NCBI RefSeq assembly: GCF_003574655.1
Contig: NZ_QNUM01000001.1
Coordinates: 744,001-808,000 of the forward strand
Direction: 5' to 3'
From: Cohaesibacter haloalkalitolerans
GTDB lineage: Bacteria > Pseudomonadota > Alphaproteobacteria > Rhizobiales > Cohaesibacteraceae
Length of the DNA: 64,000 nucleotides
In this document: piece by piece, positions 43,157 to 47,823 of the stretch
Position numbering within the stretch: the stretch's first letter is position 1
How the letters are laid out: each line of letters opens with the position of its first letter
Notes under the pieces: model-generated
What the model saw: the letters and a program-made list of their open reading frames with translations, nothing else
Databases searched by the model: none
What the model was told of the DNA's origin: nothing
Made by a program: the position numbers and the translations under genes

Positions 43157-44365
43157 TTACGACAGCTTTTTCAACGTATTCATAACGGTCAATCTTGTCG
43201 TGATTGCGGTGAATACGGCAATCAGCACAATGAGGGCGAAGGTGCCAAGGTAGGCGTTGGTGCCCAGTTGTACGACGCCGAGCAGGGCCTGCATCTGGTC
43301 GAGAGCGGCCGAGCCTTCCTGTGCCCGCAACAACAGCTGGATGATGAGGAAGGAGATCACCGCCACGCCGCCACCGGCCAGAGCACCCTGAAAGCCGAGC
43401 GTGAAGAATTTGCGCTGGAACTCACCGGCAATGAACTTGTTGCTGGCGCCGACGAAATGCAGCACCTCGATGGTTTCCTTGTTGCCCGCCATCGCCGACC
43501 GGGTCGCGAAGACGACTGTCAGGACCGTTGCCGTGATCACCAGCAGCATGATGGTGAAGCCAATGAAGATCGCCGTCTCGGCCATCGATCGCAGCCGTTC
43601 CACCCAGAAGCGGTGGTTGTCGAGGATGGCGCCGGGCACCTGCTCCTGCAATGCCTTGCTGAGACTGTCGAAATCGACATTGGACGGATCATCGATGGTC
43701 AATTCGATGAGACGGGGCACCGGCAGATCGTCAAAGGTGATGTCGAGGCCAAGCCACGGTTCGAGCAATGCGTTGGATTCGCTGGAGGTGAGAGCGGTGG
43801 CGCTGGAAATGCCCCGGGTCTGGCGGGCGATGCCGATGGCCTTTGCCAGTTCCCCCTCCATGTCGACACCTTCGATCTGGCGGATCTGGATGGTCGCACC
43901 GCGGCTGATGTCCGATTGCCAGTCGCGCGTGGCATCGGAAATGATCGAAACGGCAGCCACAGTTAGGGCGGCAAGGAAGCTCATGATGGCGATCACCAGC
44001 ACAAGGGCATGACCGGCGATGGTGCCCTTGGGCACGATCGGGCCGGGCTTCTTGTCGGAAAAGCTGAATTGCGGGGTCAGGCGACGAGGCGGTTTCAGTT
44101 TCTGGAACCGGCGGGACCGCGGCTTTTTCTTCTTGCCCTGCGGACTATCCGGCCTCATGGGCCGGGGGCCATCATTGGCACTCTCGGAGCCGTCTTGAGA
44201 CATGGCAGTGAAGTCGGGGTCGGAGGCCCTGTTTCCGGCGTTCTGCTGCGGCTCGAAGGGTTCCTTGCCTACGGGGGAGAGATTGGGCCCGATGCGAGGC
44301 ATGCCGGAAGGCATCGGAGCATGGATGCCATCGCTTCCATCGCGGTCTGTCGGATGTCTGGCCAT
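43157..44365 (-). CDS. ftsX: cell division ABC permease FtsX
   Basis: A 402-residue inner-membrane protein that couples FtsE ATP hydrolysis to activation of peptidoglycan hydrolases at the septum. It has a long cytoplasmic N-terminus of about 115 residues, proline-, lysine- and charge-rich (GKKKKPRSRRFQKLKPPRRL), longer than the E. coli one. Then come TM1 (about 118-140), the periplasmic domain (about 145-255), and three C-terminal helices with NKETIEVLHFVGASNKFIAGEFQ. The start at 44365 is 13 bases after the ftsE stop. Confidence 0.93.
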   Translation of the reverse strand: MARHPTDRDGSDGIHAPMPSGMPRIGPNLSPVGKEPFEPQQNAGNRASDPDFTAMSQDGSESANDGPRPMRPDSPQGKKKKPRSRRFQKLKPPRRLTPQFSFSDKKPGPIVPKGTIAGHALVLVIAIMSFLAALTVAAVSIISDATRDWQSDISRGATIQIRQIEGVDMEGELAKAIGIARQTRGISSATALTSSESNALLEPWLGLDITFDDLPVPRLIELTIDDPSNVDFDSLSKALQEQVPGAILDNHRFWVERLRSMAETAIFIGFTIMLLVITATVLTVVFATRSAMAGNKETIEVLHFVGASNKFIAGEFQRKFFTLGFQGALAGGGVAVISFLIIQLLLRAQEGSAALDQMQALLGVVQLGTNAYLGTFALIVLIAVFTAITTRLTVMNTLKKLS

Positions 44366-44378
44366 GATCTTCTCCTTC

Positions 44379-45038
44379 CTAGTCGTAAATATAGAGGGCG
44401 CCATCGTTCAACACGATGCGGCGAGCCTCGATCTGGTCCATCAGGCCAGTATCGTGGGTGGCGATGACGATGGACGTGCCGGATCTGTGCAGCTCGACGA
44501 ACAGGCGCAGCAGGCGGCGGGCAAGGATCGGGTCGACGTTACCGGTCGGCTCGTCCGCCAGCAGCAGCTTGGGGCGCGAAATCAGGGCACGGGCAATGGC
44601 GGCGCGCTGCTTCTCCCCGCCGGACATGACGGGGGGATAGACATGCATGCGATGGCCAAGGCCGACCCATTGCAACAGCTCGGCAACGTCTGTGCGATAG
44701 TTCTGTTCCGACAGGCCCTTGACCCGTAGCGGCAACGCCACATTCTCGAAGGTTGTCAGATGGTTGAGCAGGCGGAATTCCTGAAAGACAAAGCCGATCT
44801 GCCGGCGCAGTCGGGACAGTTCATCATGGTCGAGCCGGGCGGTATCCTTGCCGAAAACCTTGATCAGGCCGCGGTTCGGCTTGAGCGAAAGAAACATCAG
44901 CTTGAGCAGAGAAGTCTTGCCTGCCCCCGAAGGACCGGAGAGAAACTGGAAAGAGTTTGGCGGGATGTGAAAAGACACATCGCGCAACACTTCCTGCCCC
45001 ATTCCGTAACGCAGACCAACATTCTCAAAGCGAATCAA
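44379..45038 (-). CDS. ftsE: cell division ATP-binding protein FtsE
   Basis: A 219-residue ABC ATPase, partner of FtsX. It begins MIRFENVGLRYGMGQEVL, with Walker A GPSGAGKTS (35-43), VFQEFRLLNHLTTFENVALPLRV, signature MSGGEKQRAAIARAL, and LLADEPTGNVD. Length and motifs are exactly FtsE. It is divergent from the zinc-ribbon gene, with 237 bases between them. Confidence 0.95.
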   Translation of the reverse strand: MIRFENVGLRYGMGQEVLRDVSFHIPPNSFQFLSGPSGAGKTSLLKLMFLSLKPNRGLIKVFGKDTARLDHDELSRLRRQIGFVFQEFRLLNHLTTFENVALPLRVKGLSEQNYRTDVAELLQWVGLGHRMHVYPPVMSGGEKQRAAIARALISRPKLLLADEPTGNVDPILARRLLRLFVELHRSGTSIVIATHDTGLMDQIEARRIVLNDGALYIYD

Positions 45039-45275: not shown

Positions 45276-46613
45276 ATGAAGATAACCTGCCCAAACTGTG
45301 CGACAAGCTATCAGGTCCCCGATGATTATATCGGCGCCGAAGGGCGGTCTGTGCGCTGCTCCAGTTGCGGCAAGACCTGGCATGCGGAACCCCAGCCTGA
45401 ACCGGAACCCCAGCGAAAACCGGAGCCAAAACCGGAGCCTGCAGCAGCTGAGCCTGATGCTGGCAAGGAACAGAGTCAGGATGACATCGACGCGCTGTTC
45501 GACAGTCCTTCCGGTGGTGGCAAGGAACAGAGTCAGGATGACATTGACGCGCTGTTCGACAGCCCTTCCGGCGGTGGCAAGGAACAGAGCCAGGATGATA
45601 TCGACGCGCTGTTCGATAGCCCTTCCGGTGGTGGCAAGGAGCAGAGCCAGGACGATATCGACGCGCTGTTCGACAGTCCTTCCGGCGGTGGCAAGGAGCA
45701 GAGCCAGGACGATATCGACGCGCTGTTCGATAGCCCCTCCAGCGGTGGCAAGGAGCAGAGCCAGGACGATATTGACGCGCTGTTCGACAGCCCTTCCGGT
45801 GGTGGTGAGGAACAGAGTCAGGACGATATCGACGCCCTGTTTGATGCGCCAGCTCCGAAGTCAGACAGAAAGCCTGACAAGAAGGCGGATGCGCCGGACG
45901 CCGCTCCAAAACCAACATCAGACCCCGCATCGGACACTGCGTCAGGGGCGGGTGCCGCTGACATGGAGGCCGACAGCACAAAGGGCAATGCCTCCAGCCC
46001 CTTCGTCGTTACGGGCGATGGTGGAGAAGATTTCAAGTCGCCGGTCGTAGATCTTATTGACGCGGCTGCCTTTGAAGCGCAGAAGCAGGCTGCGCGGAGT
46101 TCCGACATCGAGACGAGTGCGCGCCGCAGGCAGCGCCGGAAGCGTTCTGGTGCGAAGAAGGGCAGCAGCGGGCCACGGCAGGGGTCTCTCAACAAGGAAT
46201 GGATGATCGGTGGTGGCGCGCTGGCGGCGAGCCTGCTGATTATCGCCGGGCTGTTCAGCTCACCACACTACTGGGTCAAGCGCATACCGGATCTGGCGTC
46301 GCTCTATTCCCTGTTCGGGACAACAGTGAACACGGTCGGCGTTGATATCGACATGGTCGACGTCCGGCTTGAGCAGAAGGCGGGTTCGCCGGTGCTGTCC
46401 ATCGAGACCGAACTGGTCAATTCGGGGACTGAACCTGTGATTCTTCCGTCTGTGGAGTTTTCCGTTCTTGGCAAGGAGCGTCTGGCGCTTTATTCATGGA
46501 CCATCGGCCCGGATCATGTGGGTCTGGGGCCGGGAGAACGCAAGCAGATCACGACGTCGGTTGCTGCACCAGCACAGGCAAGATATCTCAAGCTTCGCGT
46601 GTTCAACGAATAG
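45276..46613 (+). CDS. MJ0042-type zinc-ribbon membrane protein with seven SQDDIDALF repeats
   Basis: A 445-residue protein. Residues 1-36 form a zinc ribbon, MKITCPNCATSYQVP then RCSSCGKTW, with C5, C8, C28 and C31. A Pro-Glu spacer (38-60) leads to seven tandem 19-residue repeats at 63-195 (GKEQSQDDIDALFDSPSGG). A low-complexity acidic then basic linker follows (KRSGAKKGSSGPRQG). One membrane helix spans about 310-328, and the last 110 residues resemble the periplasmic DUF3426 domain of this family. The ribbon and C-terminus are ordinary for alphaproteobacterial FtsE neighbours; the repeat block is not. Function unknown. It lies 55 bases before hpt. Confidence 0.9.
   Translation: MKITCPNCATSYQVPDDYIGAEGRSVRCSSCGKTWHAEPQPEPEPQRKPEPKPEPAAAEPDAGKEQSQDDIDALFDSPSGGGKEQSQDDIDALFDSPSGGGKEQSQDDIDALFDSPSGGGKEQSQDDIDALFDSPSGGGKEQSQDDIDALFDSPSSGGKEQSQDDIDALFDSPSGGGEEQSQDDIDALFDAPAPKSDRKPDKKADAPDAAPKPTSDPASDTASGAGAADMEADSTKGNASSPFVVTGDGGEDFKSPVVDLIDAAAFEAQKQAARSSDIETSARRRQRRKRSGAKKGSSGPRQGSLNKEWMIGGGALAASLLIIAGLFSSPHYWVKRIPDLASLYSLFGTTVNTVGVDIDMVDVRLEQKAGSPVLSIETELVNSGTEPVILPSVEFSVLGKERLALYSWTIGPDHVGLGPGERKQITTSVAAPAQARYLKLRVFNE
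45462..45860 (+). repeat. seven 57-bp in-frame tandem repeats
   Basis: Each unit encodes GKEQSQDDIDALFDSPSGG. Copies differ mainly at synonymous sites (for example GACATC/GATATT, AGTCCT/AGCCCT), with a Gly-to-Ser in the tail of unit 5 and Lys-to-Glu at the start of unit 7. Unit 7 degrades into DAPAPKS. The core SQDDIDALF is present in all seven. Confidence 0.97.
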
Positions 46614-46668: not shown

Positions 46669-47193
46669 ATGACTGATACCATCGAAGTCCTCTATGACGA
46701 GGCGACACTCGCCAGCCGCAATCAGGAACTGGCCAACGCCATCGCCAAAGCGGACTACAAGAATCTGCTCGTCATTGCAGTCTTGAAGGGGAGTTTCGTT
46801 TTCGCGGCAGATCTGTTGCGGGCGCTCTACCGGGCCGGGGTGCCGCTTGAGGTGGAATTCATGTCCTTGTCGAGCTATGGCTCCGGCACCAAGTCCTCCG
46901 GCAATGTGAAGGTGGTGCGTGACATCGAGGTGATCGTCAAGGGGCGCGATGTGCTGCTGGTTGACGACATTCTGGAGTCCGGACGCACGCTGGCCTTCGC
47001 CAAGAGCCTGTTGCAGGAGCGGGGCGCCAACCGCACCGATATCGCTGTTCTGCTTGATAAACCGGGCAAGCGGGTGGTCGATCTGAAGGCTGAATATGTC
47101 GGGTTTGAGTGCCCGGACAAGTTCGTCGTCGGCTATGGCATGGACAAGGCGCACTCCTATCGCGAGGTGCCATTTGTAGGCTATCTTGAATAA
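46669..47193 (+). CDS. hpt: hypoxanthine phosphoribosyltransferase
   Basis: A 174-residue cytoplasmic purine-salvage enzyme that makes IMP (and GMP) from hypoxanthine or guanine and PRPP. It has VIAVLKGSFVFAADLLRAL, FMSLSSYGSGTKSSG, and the PRPP motif VLLVDDILESGRTLA with the adjacent acidic pair. The C-terminal KFVVGYGMDKAHSYREVPFVGYL is typical. The start at 46669 is chosen by homology; the upstream in-frame extension overlaps the preceding gene. Probably cotranscribed with the zinc-ribbon gene. Confidence 0.93.
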   Translation: MTDTIEVLYDEATLASRNQELANAIAKADYKNLLVIAVLKGSFVFAADLLRALYRAGVPLEVEFMSLSSYGSGTKSSGNVKVVRDIEVIVKGRDVLLVDDILESGRTLAFAKSLLQERGANRTDIAVLLDKPGKRVVDLKAEYVGFECPDKFVVGYGMDKAHSYREVPFVGYLE

Positions 47194-47412: not shown

Positions 47413-47823
47413 ATGGCCCGAATTCTTCTGACCGAAGATGACGACGGGGTCCGTATGTTTGTGCAACGGGCATTGATGATGGACGGACATGACGTCAAAA
47501 CGGCCGAAGACGGTACGGATGCGCTGGACCTTCTGGTCGAGCATAAAGGGTCCTTTGATTTGCTCCTGACTGATATCCGCATGCCAGAGATGGATGGGAT
47601 AGAACTGGCCAAGTCGGCCGCGGGCAGTTGGCCCGAAATGACAATTCTGATGATGACCGGTTATGCGGATCAGCGCGAACGTGGCGAGGGCCTTGCTACC
47701 ATCGTGCATGATGTTGTCTCCAAACCGTTCTCGCTGGCCGAGATCCGCCGCGCTGTCAGGGAAGCCCTGTCTGGTGATGTTGCGCTCGGTCCCGTGTCGA
47801 TGACACATGCGATGTATGGATAG
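47413..47823 (+). CDS. cpdR: single-domain response regulator, CpdR-like
   Basis: A 136-residue protein made of one receiver domain without output domain. The acidic pocket is TEDDDGVR, the phospho-acceptor D54 in LLLTDIRMPEMDGIEL, then MMTGYAD and the conserved Lys in VVSKPFSLAEI. In Caulobacter and Sinorhizobium, CpdR proteins control ClpXP degradation of CtrA and other cell-cycle proteins. The sequence fits that group, but receivers are hard to name without a tree. The C-terminal tail (ALGPVSMTHAMYG) extends beyond the fold. Confidence 0.72.
   Translation: MARILLTEDDDGVRMFVQRALMMDGHDVKTAEDGTDALDLLVEHKGSFDLLLTDIRMPEMDGIELAKSAAGSWPEMTILMMTGYADQRERGEGLATIVHDVVSKPFSLAEIRRAVREALSGDVALGPVSMTHAMYG

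Follow-up and report, generated by a model that had tools for sequence, protein, structure and literature searches.

The protein encoded at positions 45276-46613 on the forward strand of the window (the whole analysed stretch of 64,000 nucleotides from the marine bacterium Cohaesibacter haloalkalitolerans) raises the question of why a membrane protein with a zinc ribbon should contain seven tandem copies of a short peptide, and which partner would read them. The window is contained in a genome of 5.01 Mb in 24 contigs (G000). In the initial annotation, the repeat core SQDDIDALF was noted to resemble the CheY-binding motif of FliM, and recruitment of a receiver, possibly the CpdR-like one encoded nearby, was suggested.

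The gene encodes a polypeptide of 445 amino acids, in which a zinc ribbon is followed by a proline- and glutamate-rich stretch, the array, a linker that is acidic and then basic, a membrane helix and a beta-sandwich. The ribbon at residues 1-37 (45276..45386) scored above the curated cut-offs with PF13717 (53 bits, cut-off 30.3) and TIGR02098 (55.7 bits, cut-off 20.9), which confirmed this part of the initial annotation. The DUF3426-like end proposed there is weaker, with PF11906 giving 11.9 bits and thus remaining below the cut-off of 27.7. Here, a membrane helix is predicted at residues 304-328 (46185..46259), which form a helix in the AlphaFold2 model and are the most hydrophobic stretch of the protein. 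The helix precedes the DUF3426-like beta-sandwich at residues 356-443 (46341..46604), in which strands were modelled by AlphaFold2 with a pLDDT of 76-92; by analogy with ZitP, this end is expected to be periplasmic. Divergently upstream, on the reverse strand, two open reading frames are present which are conserved neighbours and were named ftsE (44379..45038) and ftsX (43157..44404) in the initial annotation; the adjacency described there is thus real. Downstream, on the forward strand, an hpt-like phosphoribosyltransferase is encoded (46669..47193, PF00156, 89.6 bits), which lies outside the mechanism proposed below. It is followed by a single-domain receiver on the same strand (47413..47823, PF00072, 83.8 bits), starting 800 bp downstream of the array gene as had been stated; its best NCBIfam model is CpdR, with 105.4 bits at a cut-off of 180.

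Judged from its sequence, the window protein is of the ZitP type, a point missed in the initial annotation; ZitP works together with CpaM on pili. The best PDB match was the zinc ribbon of Caulobacter ZitP (2nb9_A, residues 2-38, E 1.7e-8), the next match of the ribbon being 7zok_A from AgmX (E 1.3e-4). For Caulobacter, it was reported that the ZitP ribbon binds PopZ and that C5, C8, C28, C31, R24, R27 and W35 are required (PMC5182065). The window protein possesses all seven residues; among the 18 sequences from the genus, 17 do so, the exception being L018 with K27. PopZ is encoded in the same genome (PF10691, 93.2 bits, G000:C18:9511-9711) and was found in 56 of 61 relatives. Caulobacter ZitP has been described as a bitopic, polar partner of PopZ with a periplasmic DUF3426 domain; its ribbon supports swarming by a mechanism given as unknown by the authors, and DUF3426 is dispensable for swarming (PMC5182063). 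In a later study, loss of zitP was reported to have a weak or little effect on PopZ (PMC10127582). With the Caulobacter protein, the window protein shares the CXXC-X19-CXXC ribbon at residues 1-37 including R24, R27 and W35 and a PopZ in the genome; a single membrane helix and a beta-sandwich end, as in that protein, are predicted. However, Caulobacter ZitP consists of 311 residues with its transmembrane segment at 106-127, and the available text of its descriptions mentions no repeats (PMC5182063, PMC5182065), while in the window protein the seven-unit array lengthens the linker. A further difference is the match of the window protein to DUF3426, and because this match is below the cut-off, full membership in the ZitP family is likely yet not complete. 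The ribbon is also of the same type as that of GltJ/AgmX from Myxococcus, although the respective model NF033761 gave 33.9 bits, far below its cut-off of 450. In AgmX, W35 is replaced by an isoleucine, and its ribbon was reported to fail to localise in Caulobacter (PMC5182065).

The array extends over 45462..45851 and consists of seven units of 19 residues, each with the core QDDIDALF preceded by a serine. The QDDIDALF cores are located at residues 68-75, 87-94, 106-113, 125-132, 144-151, 163-170 and 182-189, so that the SQDDIDALF segments are encoded at 45474-45500, 45531-45557, 45588-45614, 45645-45671, 45702-45728, 45759-45785 and 45816-45842 on the forward strand. Tandem Repeats Finder identified a period of 57 nucleotides at 45461-45841 with 6.7 copies, 91% matches and a score of 587, the strongest tandem repeat in the window, with the runner-up scoring 65. 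Both translation and repeat finding thus confirm the seven in-frame repeats. Among copies 1 to 6, 69 synonymous and 5 non-synonymous codon differences were counted (summed over pairs, which are non-independent), while for random single changes in one unit 35 of 171 (20%) are expected to be synonymous. This agrees with the earlier suggestion that the peptide, and not the DNA, is kept, and an array maintained as a DNA feature or by mere slippage is disfavoured by the codon analysis.

The same holds across the genus. The array was identified in all 18 sampled Cohaesibacter genomes (G000-G017) and is always in frame, so that the block proved to be conserved in close relatives; the comparison of copy numbers gave 5 to 9 counted copies, one sequence (L017) ending at a contig edge. 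In the 117 units from these genomes, the glutamine and the final phenylalanine are invariant, isoleucine or valine is present in 117/117 and the following aspartate in 116/117, and the last linker positions vary freely. Codon differences between copies within the genomes amounted to 1056 synonymous and 160 non-synonymous ones in the core, compared to 949 and 594 outside the core; these counts are descriptive and not tests, because the pairs of copies are not independent.

The identity of the core was revealed by a search of the same genome. The pattern Q[DAE][DE]IDxL gave 13 matches in 5.0 Mb and none for the reversed pattern: the seven array copies, the extreme C-termini of two CheZ-family proteins, one site near the N-terminus of FliM and three unrelated frames. 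Likewise, Q[DE][DEA]hDx[LF]F, where h is a hydrophobic residue, gave 13 matches and none for the control, located in the array (seven), CheZ1, CheZ2, a third CheZ (twice), PopZ and a 169-residue protein. CheZ1 ends with SQDDIDALFG-COOH and CheZ2 with SQDDIDALFD-COOH, so that the core is letter-identical to the array; the CheZ assignments are based on PF04344 above its cut-off. The CheZ2 tail VASQDDIDALFD aligns with VASQDQVDDLLD of E. coli CheZ in 1kmi (1kmi_Z, E 1.6e-5), in register with the C-terminal helix. For CheZ1, the E. coli tail aligns further upstream with QQDEVDAMLADLDF, and SQDDIDALFG then represents a second copy. According to the chain lists, 1kmi contains CheZ together with CheY, and other CheY entries listed hold CheZ or FliM peptides. 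The FliM of the same genome has the N-terminal sequence NQEEIDNLLG, and all seven window copies match the consensus S-Q-x-[DE]-I-D-x-L-[LF]. For FliM, the CheY-binding consensus was given as LSQxEIDxLL (PMC5677366). This motif of Caulobacter FliM was reported to bind CheY-like proteins, with the Ile-Asp pair being required (PMC5677366, PMC7534056), and changing this pair abolished the binding of the CheY-like CleA (PMC5677366). For Azorhizobium CheZ, the conserved CheY-P-binding region was placed at the C-terminus (PMC7750401). The resemblance to FliM pointed out in the initial annotation was therefore borne out and can be stated more sharply: the core fits LSQxEIDxLL and is identical to two CheZ-family tails of the same genome.

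The position at the CheZ end is common outside the genus. From 64 CheZ matches, 40 were fetched and 38 had a readable frame; by regular expression, 27 of these 38 frames from other families terminate in the motif with one or two residues after it, and two further ends, DQDAIDALFG and NQDNIDALFG, are alike by eye. More than one motif is present in 5 of the 38 frames, and 9 are devoid of it, mostly long paralogues. In the genome under study, the third, long CheZ paralogue (L087:7652-9049, G000:C19) carries three motif-like copies, after which a long acidic tail follows. The array thus shares its core with the CheY-binding helix of CheZ. It differs in that CheZ, a phosphatase, carries one copy, sometimes two to four, at its C-terminus or close to it, whereas the window protein has seven internal copies and no phosphatase domain. 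With FliM, the array shares S-Q-x-D/E-I-D-x-L-L/F including the Ile-Asp pair; however, FliM has a single, non-tandem copy at the motor switch and lacks a membrane anchor at a polar scaffold. By description only, the epsilon-proteobacterial CheZ partner ChePep is comparable as a polar protein tying a chemotaxis component to the pole (PMC7750401). The 169-residue protein mentioned above (L221, G000:C17, motif at 164745-164767) has no Pfam or NCBIfam match, ends with TAQDEVDRLFD like a CheZ tail and is encoded at a distance of about 15 kb from cheY and cheZ1; from its sequence, it is a candidate for a new CheY-binding protein.

Arrays in ZitP-type proteins were found to be sporadic. In the order survey, 34 ZitP loci outside the genus were readable and one was cut by a contig end; with G019 added from a separate read and G041 excluded, the motif was present in 3 of 35 readable orthologues, with one copy in G018 (NQDDVEALFA), six in G052 and five in G019. 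The linkers of the other orthologues are long and acidic. When 385 sampled genomes of the class were searched with the repeat segment, nine of them gave a match. Apart from its own genome, the matches were to CheZ-type proteins (six), a PopZ-like protein (G373) and a ZitP-type protein (G110); the last has four SQDAV copies in a different linker and is the only other ZitP array in that sample. With such a sporadic arrangement, CheY docking would not be a general function of ZitP. In G052 and G110, the linkers differ around the same core, and therefore it is the core, and not the repeat DNA, which recurs. When named genomes were scanned with the repeat segment, five loci were obtained, four from Cohaesibacter and one on a metagenome-assembled contig labelled Bacteroidetes (JADZAA010000108.1). 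The latter codes for a CheZ-type protein (L183) with several motif copies adjoining a CheA-like protein, and the contig seems to stem from a bin that is mixed or wrongly labelled.

PopZ is a further carrier of the motif. The PopZ of the genome contains a single copy, ALSQEALDALFDEP (SQEALDALF). Of 44 PopZ loci in the order, 39 were readable, and the strict motif was present in 18/18 from the genus and in 7/21 others, the loose form in 10/21 others; in shuffled PopZ linkers, the strict motif occurred in 0/7800 and the loose one in 8/7800 cases. At the class level, the motif in PopZ is rare, with 1 of 80 readable linkers out of 88 fetched, which were the best-scoring and not a random choice from 308 genomes with PopZ. 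A link between the PopZ motif and the presence of CheZ was considered at both levels, and no association was found in the order (Fisher p 0.52 strict, 0.21 loose) or in the class (1/49 versus 0/31). One PopZ (L089, G031:C1) contains three tandem MSQDDLDALFDAPEPAAEEP units between the N-terminal helix and the C-terminal domain, and in a PopZ-like protein (L078, G373:C82), copies of SQNDVDSLL and SQDDVDSLF precede a long run of proline and glutamate. In a different family, a membrane protein with an EAL domain, similar to c-di-GMP phosphodiesterases (L159, G043:C128), has a C-terminal SQDDVDALF array of at least four copies. In total, arrays were identified sporadically in ZitP of three lineages, in PopZ, in CheZ and in one EAL protein. 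Since they are present in different proteins with different linkers, their sequences suggest that such arrays have been built repeatedly and independently.

From these data, it is proposed, with a probability of roughly 0.6, that the window protein is a membrane-anchored, disordered and multivalent dock for CheY or CheY-P at the cell pole. The cytoplasmic, disordered linker of a ZitP-type bitopic protein would be filled with seven CheY-docking peptides of the CheZ-tail or FliM type, the protein would reach the polar PopZ matrix through its zinc ribbon, and the transmembrane helix would anchor it in the inner membrane. Each SQDDIDALF core would adopt a short helical conformation against the alpha4-beta5-alpha5 face of CheY, with binding probably being tightest when CheY is phosphorylated. 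Considering the sizes of the peptide and of CheY, the period of 19 residues could allow the joint filling of neighbouring sites. The dock may keep a store of CheY-P near the motor, or it may serve as a local sink that draws CheY-P away from FliM or competes with FliM and CheZ. AlphaFold2 was run on 18 sequences as single chains. For the window protein, the model is of low confidence overall, with a mean pLDDT of 61.1 and a pTM of 0.30; the ribbon reached 83-87, the array linkers stayed below 50, each of the seven cores was at or above 50, and short helical turns were modelled at four of the seven cores. This pattern would be expected of peptides folding upon binding and weakly points in this direction. 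A structure search with the model returned generic beta-sandwich and spurious matches only.

The receiver most probably addressed by such a dock is the CheY of the genome, whose gene directly precedes cheZ1 in the same orientation, with a 108-residue open reading frame of no known kind in between. It matches E. coli CheY with 2e-41 and retains K91, Y106, V108, K109, F111 and K119, the residues binding FliM and CheZ. In the CpdR-like receiver, these positions (E. coli CheY numbering) are occupied by D, V, S, K, F and A, so that the CheY-like binding face is absent at positions 91, 106, 108 and 119. Recruitment of this receiver, the idea of the initial annotation, draws on the proximity of its gene and on the reported polar location of Caulobacter CpdR and its interaction with PopZ (PMC5182063). 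However, among 36 ZitP loci outside the genus, FtsE is encoded next to zitP in 35 and a CpdR-like receiver in 21, and in 18 of these 21 ZitP is devoid of the motif; the CpdR-like neighbourhood is therefore older than the array. On grounds of neighbourhood and residues, CpdR was rejected as the leading partner, and this is the least probable of the readings considered here. A somewhat better, still rather improbable candidate is some CheY-like protein distinct from CheY itself, for example, a c-di-GMP effector of the Cle type, in which case the dock would report c-di-GMP instead of CheA activity. Caulobacter CleA and CleD were described to bind the same FliM motif (PMC5677366), and the SQDDVDALF array of the EAL-domain protein would fit such a role. 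Against this, K91, Y106 and K119 are combined in none of the 18 other receivers with an aligned D57; the genome gave 40 receiver matches, of which 30 had loci, and 26 were compared besides CheY and the CpdR-like protein, 8 of which were misread.

A shared partner distinct from CheY, such as a polar scaffold or adaptor, might also read the motif, so that the array would cluster polar proteins and not CheY. The carriers of the motif, CheZ tails, PopZ linkers and ZitP, are all polar or partly polar, and Azorhizobium CheZ was reported to be kept at the pole by an unknown anchor in the absence of CheA, CheY1, CheY2, FliM or FliN (PMC7750401). However, in the same organism, CheZ lacking residues 170-236, and with them the tail, stayed polar in more than 70% of the cells (PMC7750401), and the tail is thus not a polar tag there; in addition, a related sequence is present at the N-terminus of FliM, which binds CheY. 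A common partner is therefore considered unlikely, though it deserves more weight than the CpdR-like receiver or a Cle-type effector. The array could finally be a product of slippage, serving as a flexible acidic spacer without any partner. Tandem repeats easily change their copy number, as is seen in the genus, and the orthologous linkers elsewhere are just long and acidic, but the core is strongly constrained compared to its surroundings (with the pairs of copies being non-independent) and recurs amid different linkers in G052 and G110. A spacer appears improbable, to nearly the same degree as a Cle-type partner.

Docking of CheY thus remains the preferred reading, and its components are already known as kinds, namely the docking peptide, ZitP and PopZ. 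In the open-licence literature, as far as its text was available, no description was found of a tandem array in ZitP or of a motif shared with PopZ; the string SQDDIDALF was absent from the literature searched, and nothing was found on PopZ together with CheY and CheZ. The polar anchoring of CheZ in alphaproteobacteria has been described as an open question (PMC7750401). With copy numbers differing among species (5 to 9 counted), the array is a natural candidate for a multivalent CheY ligand. Tentatively, and at slightly less than even odds, a direct connection between polarity and chemotaxis is suggested, in which ZitP, together with the single-copy PopZ, would provide multivalent polar docks for CheY-P, and the matrix would store, buffer or time the signal to the motor. 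The CheZ-tail peptide would then be a recurrent docking module, incorporated time after time into polar proteins, namely ZitP (three lineages whose linkers differ), PopZ and the EAL protein, and multiplied in CheZ. A ZitP packed with CheZ tails would in this way suggest a concrete and quickly testable route by which a polarity protein may act on the motor.
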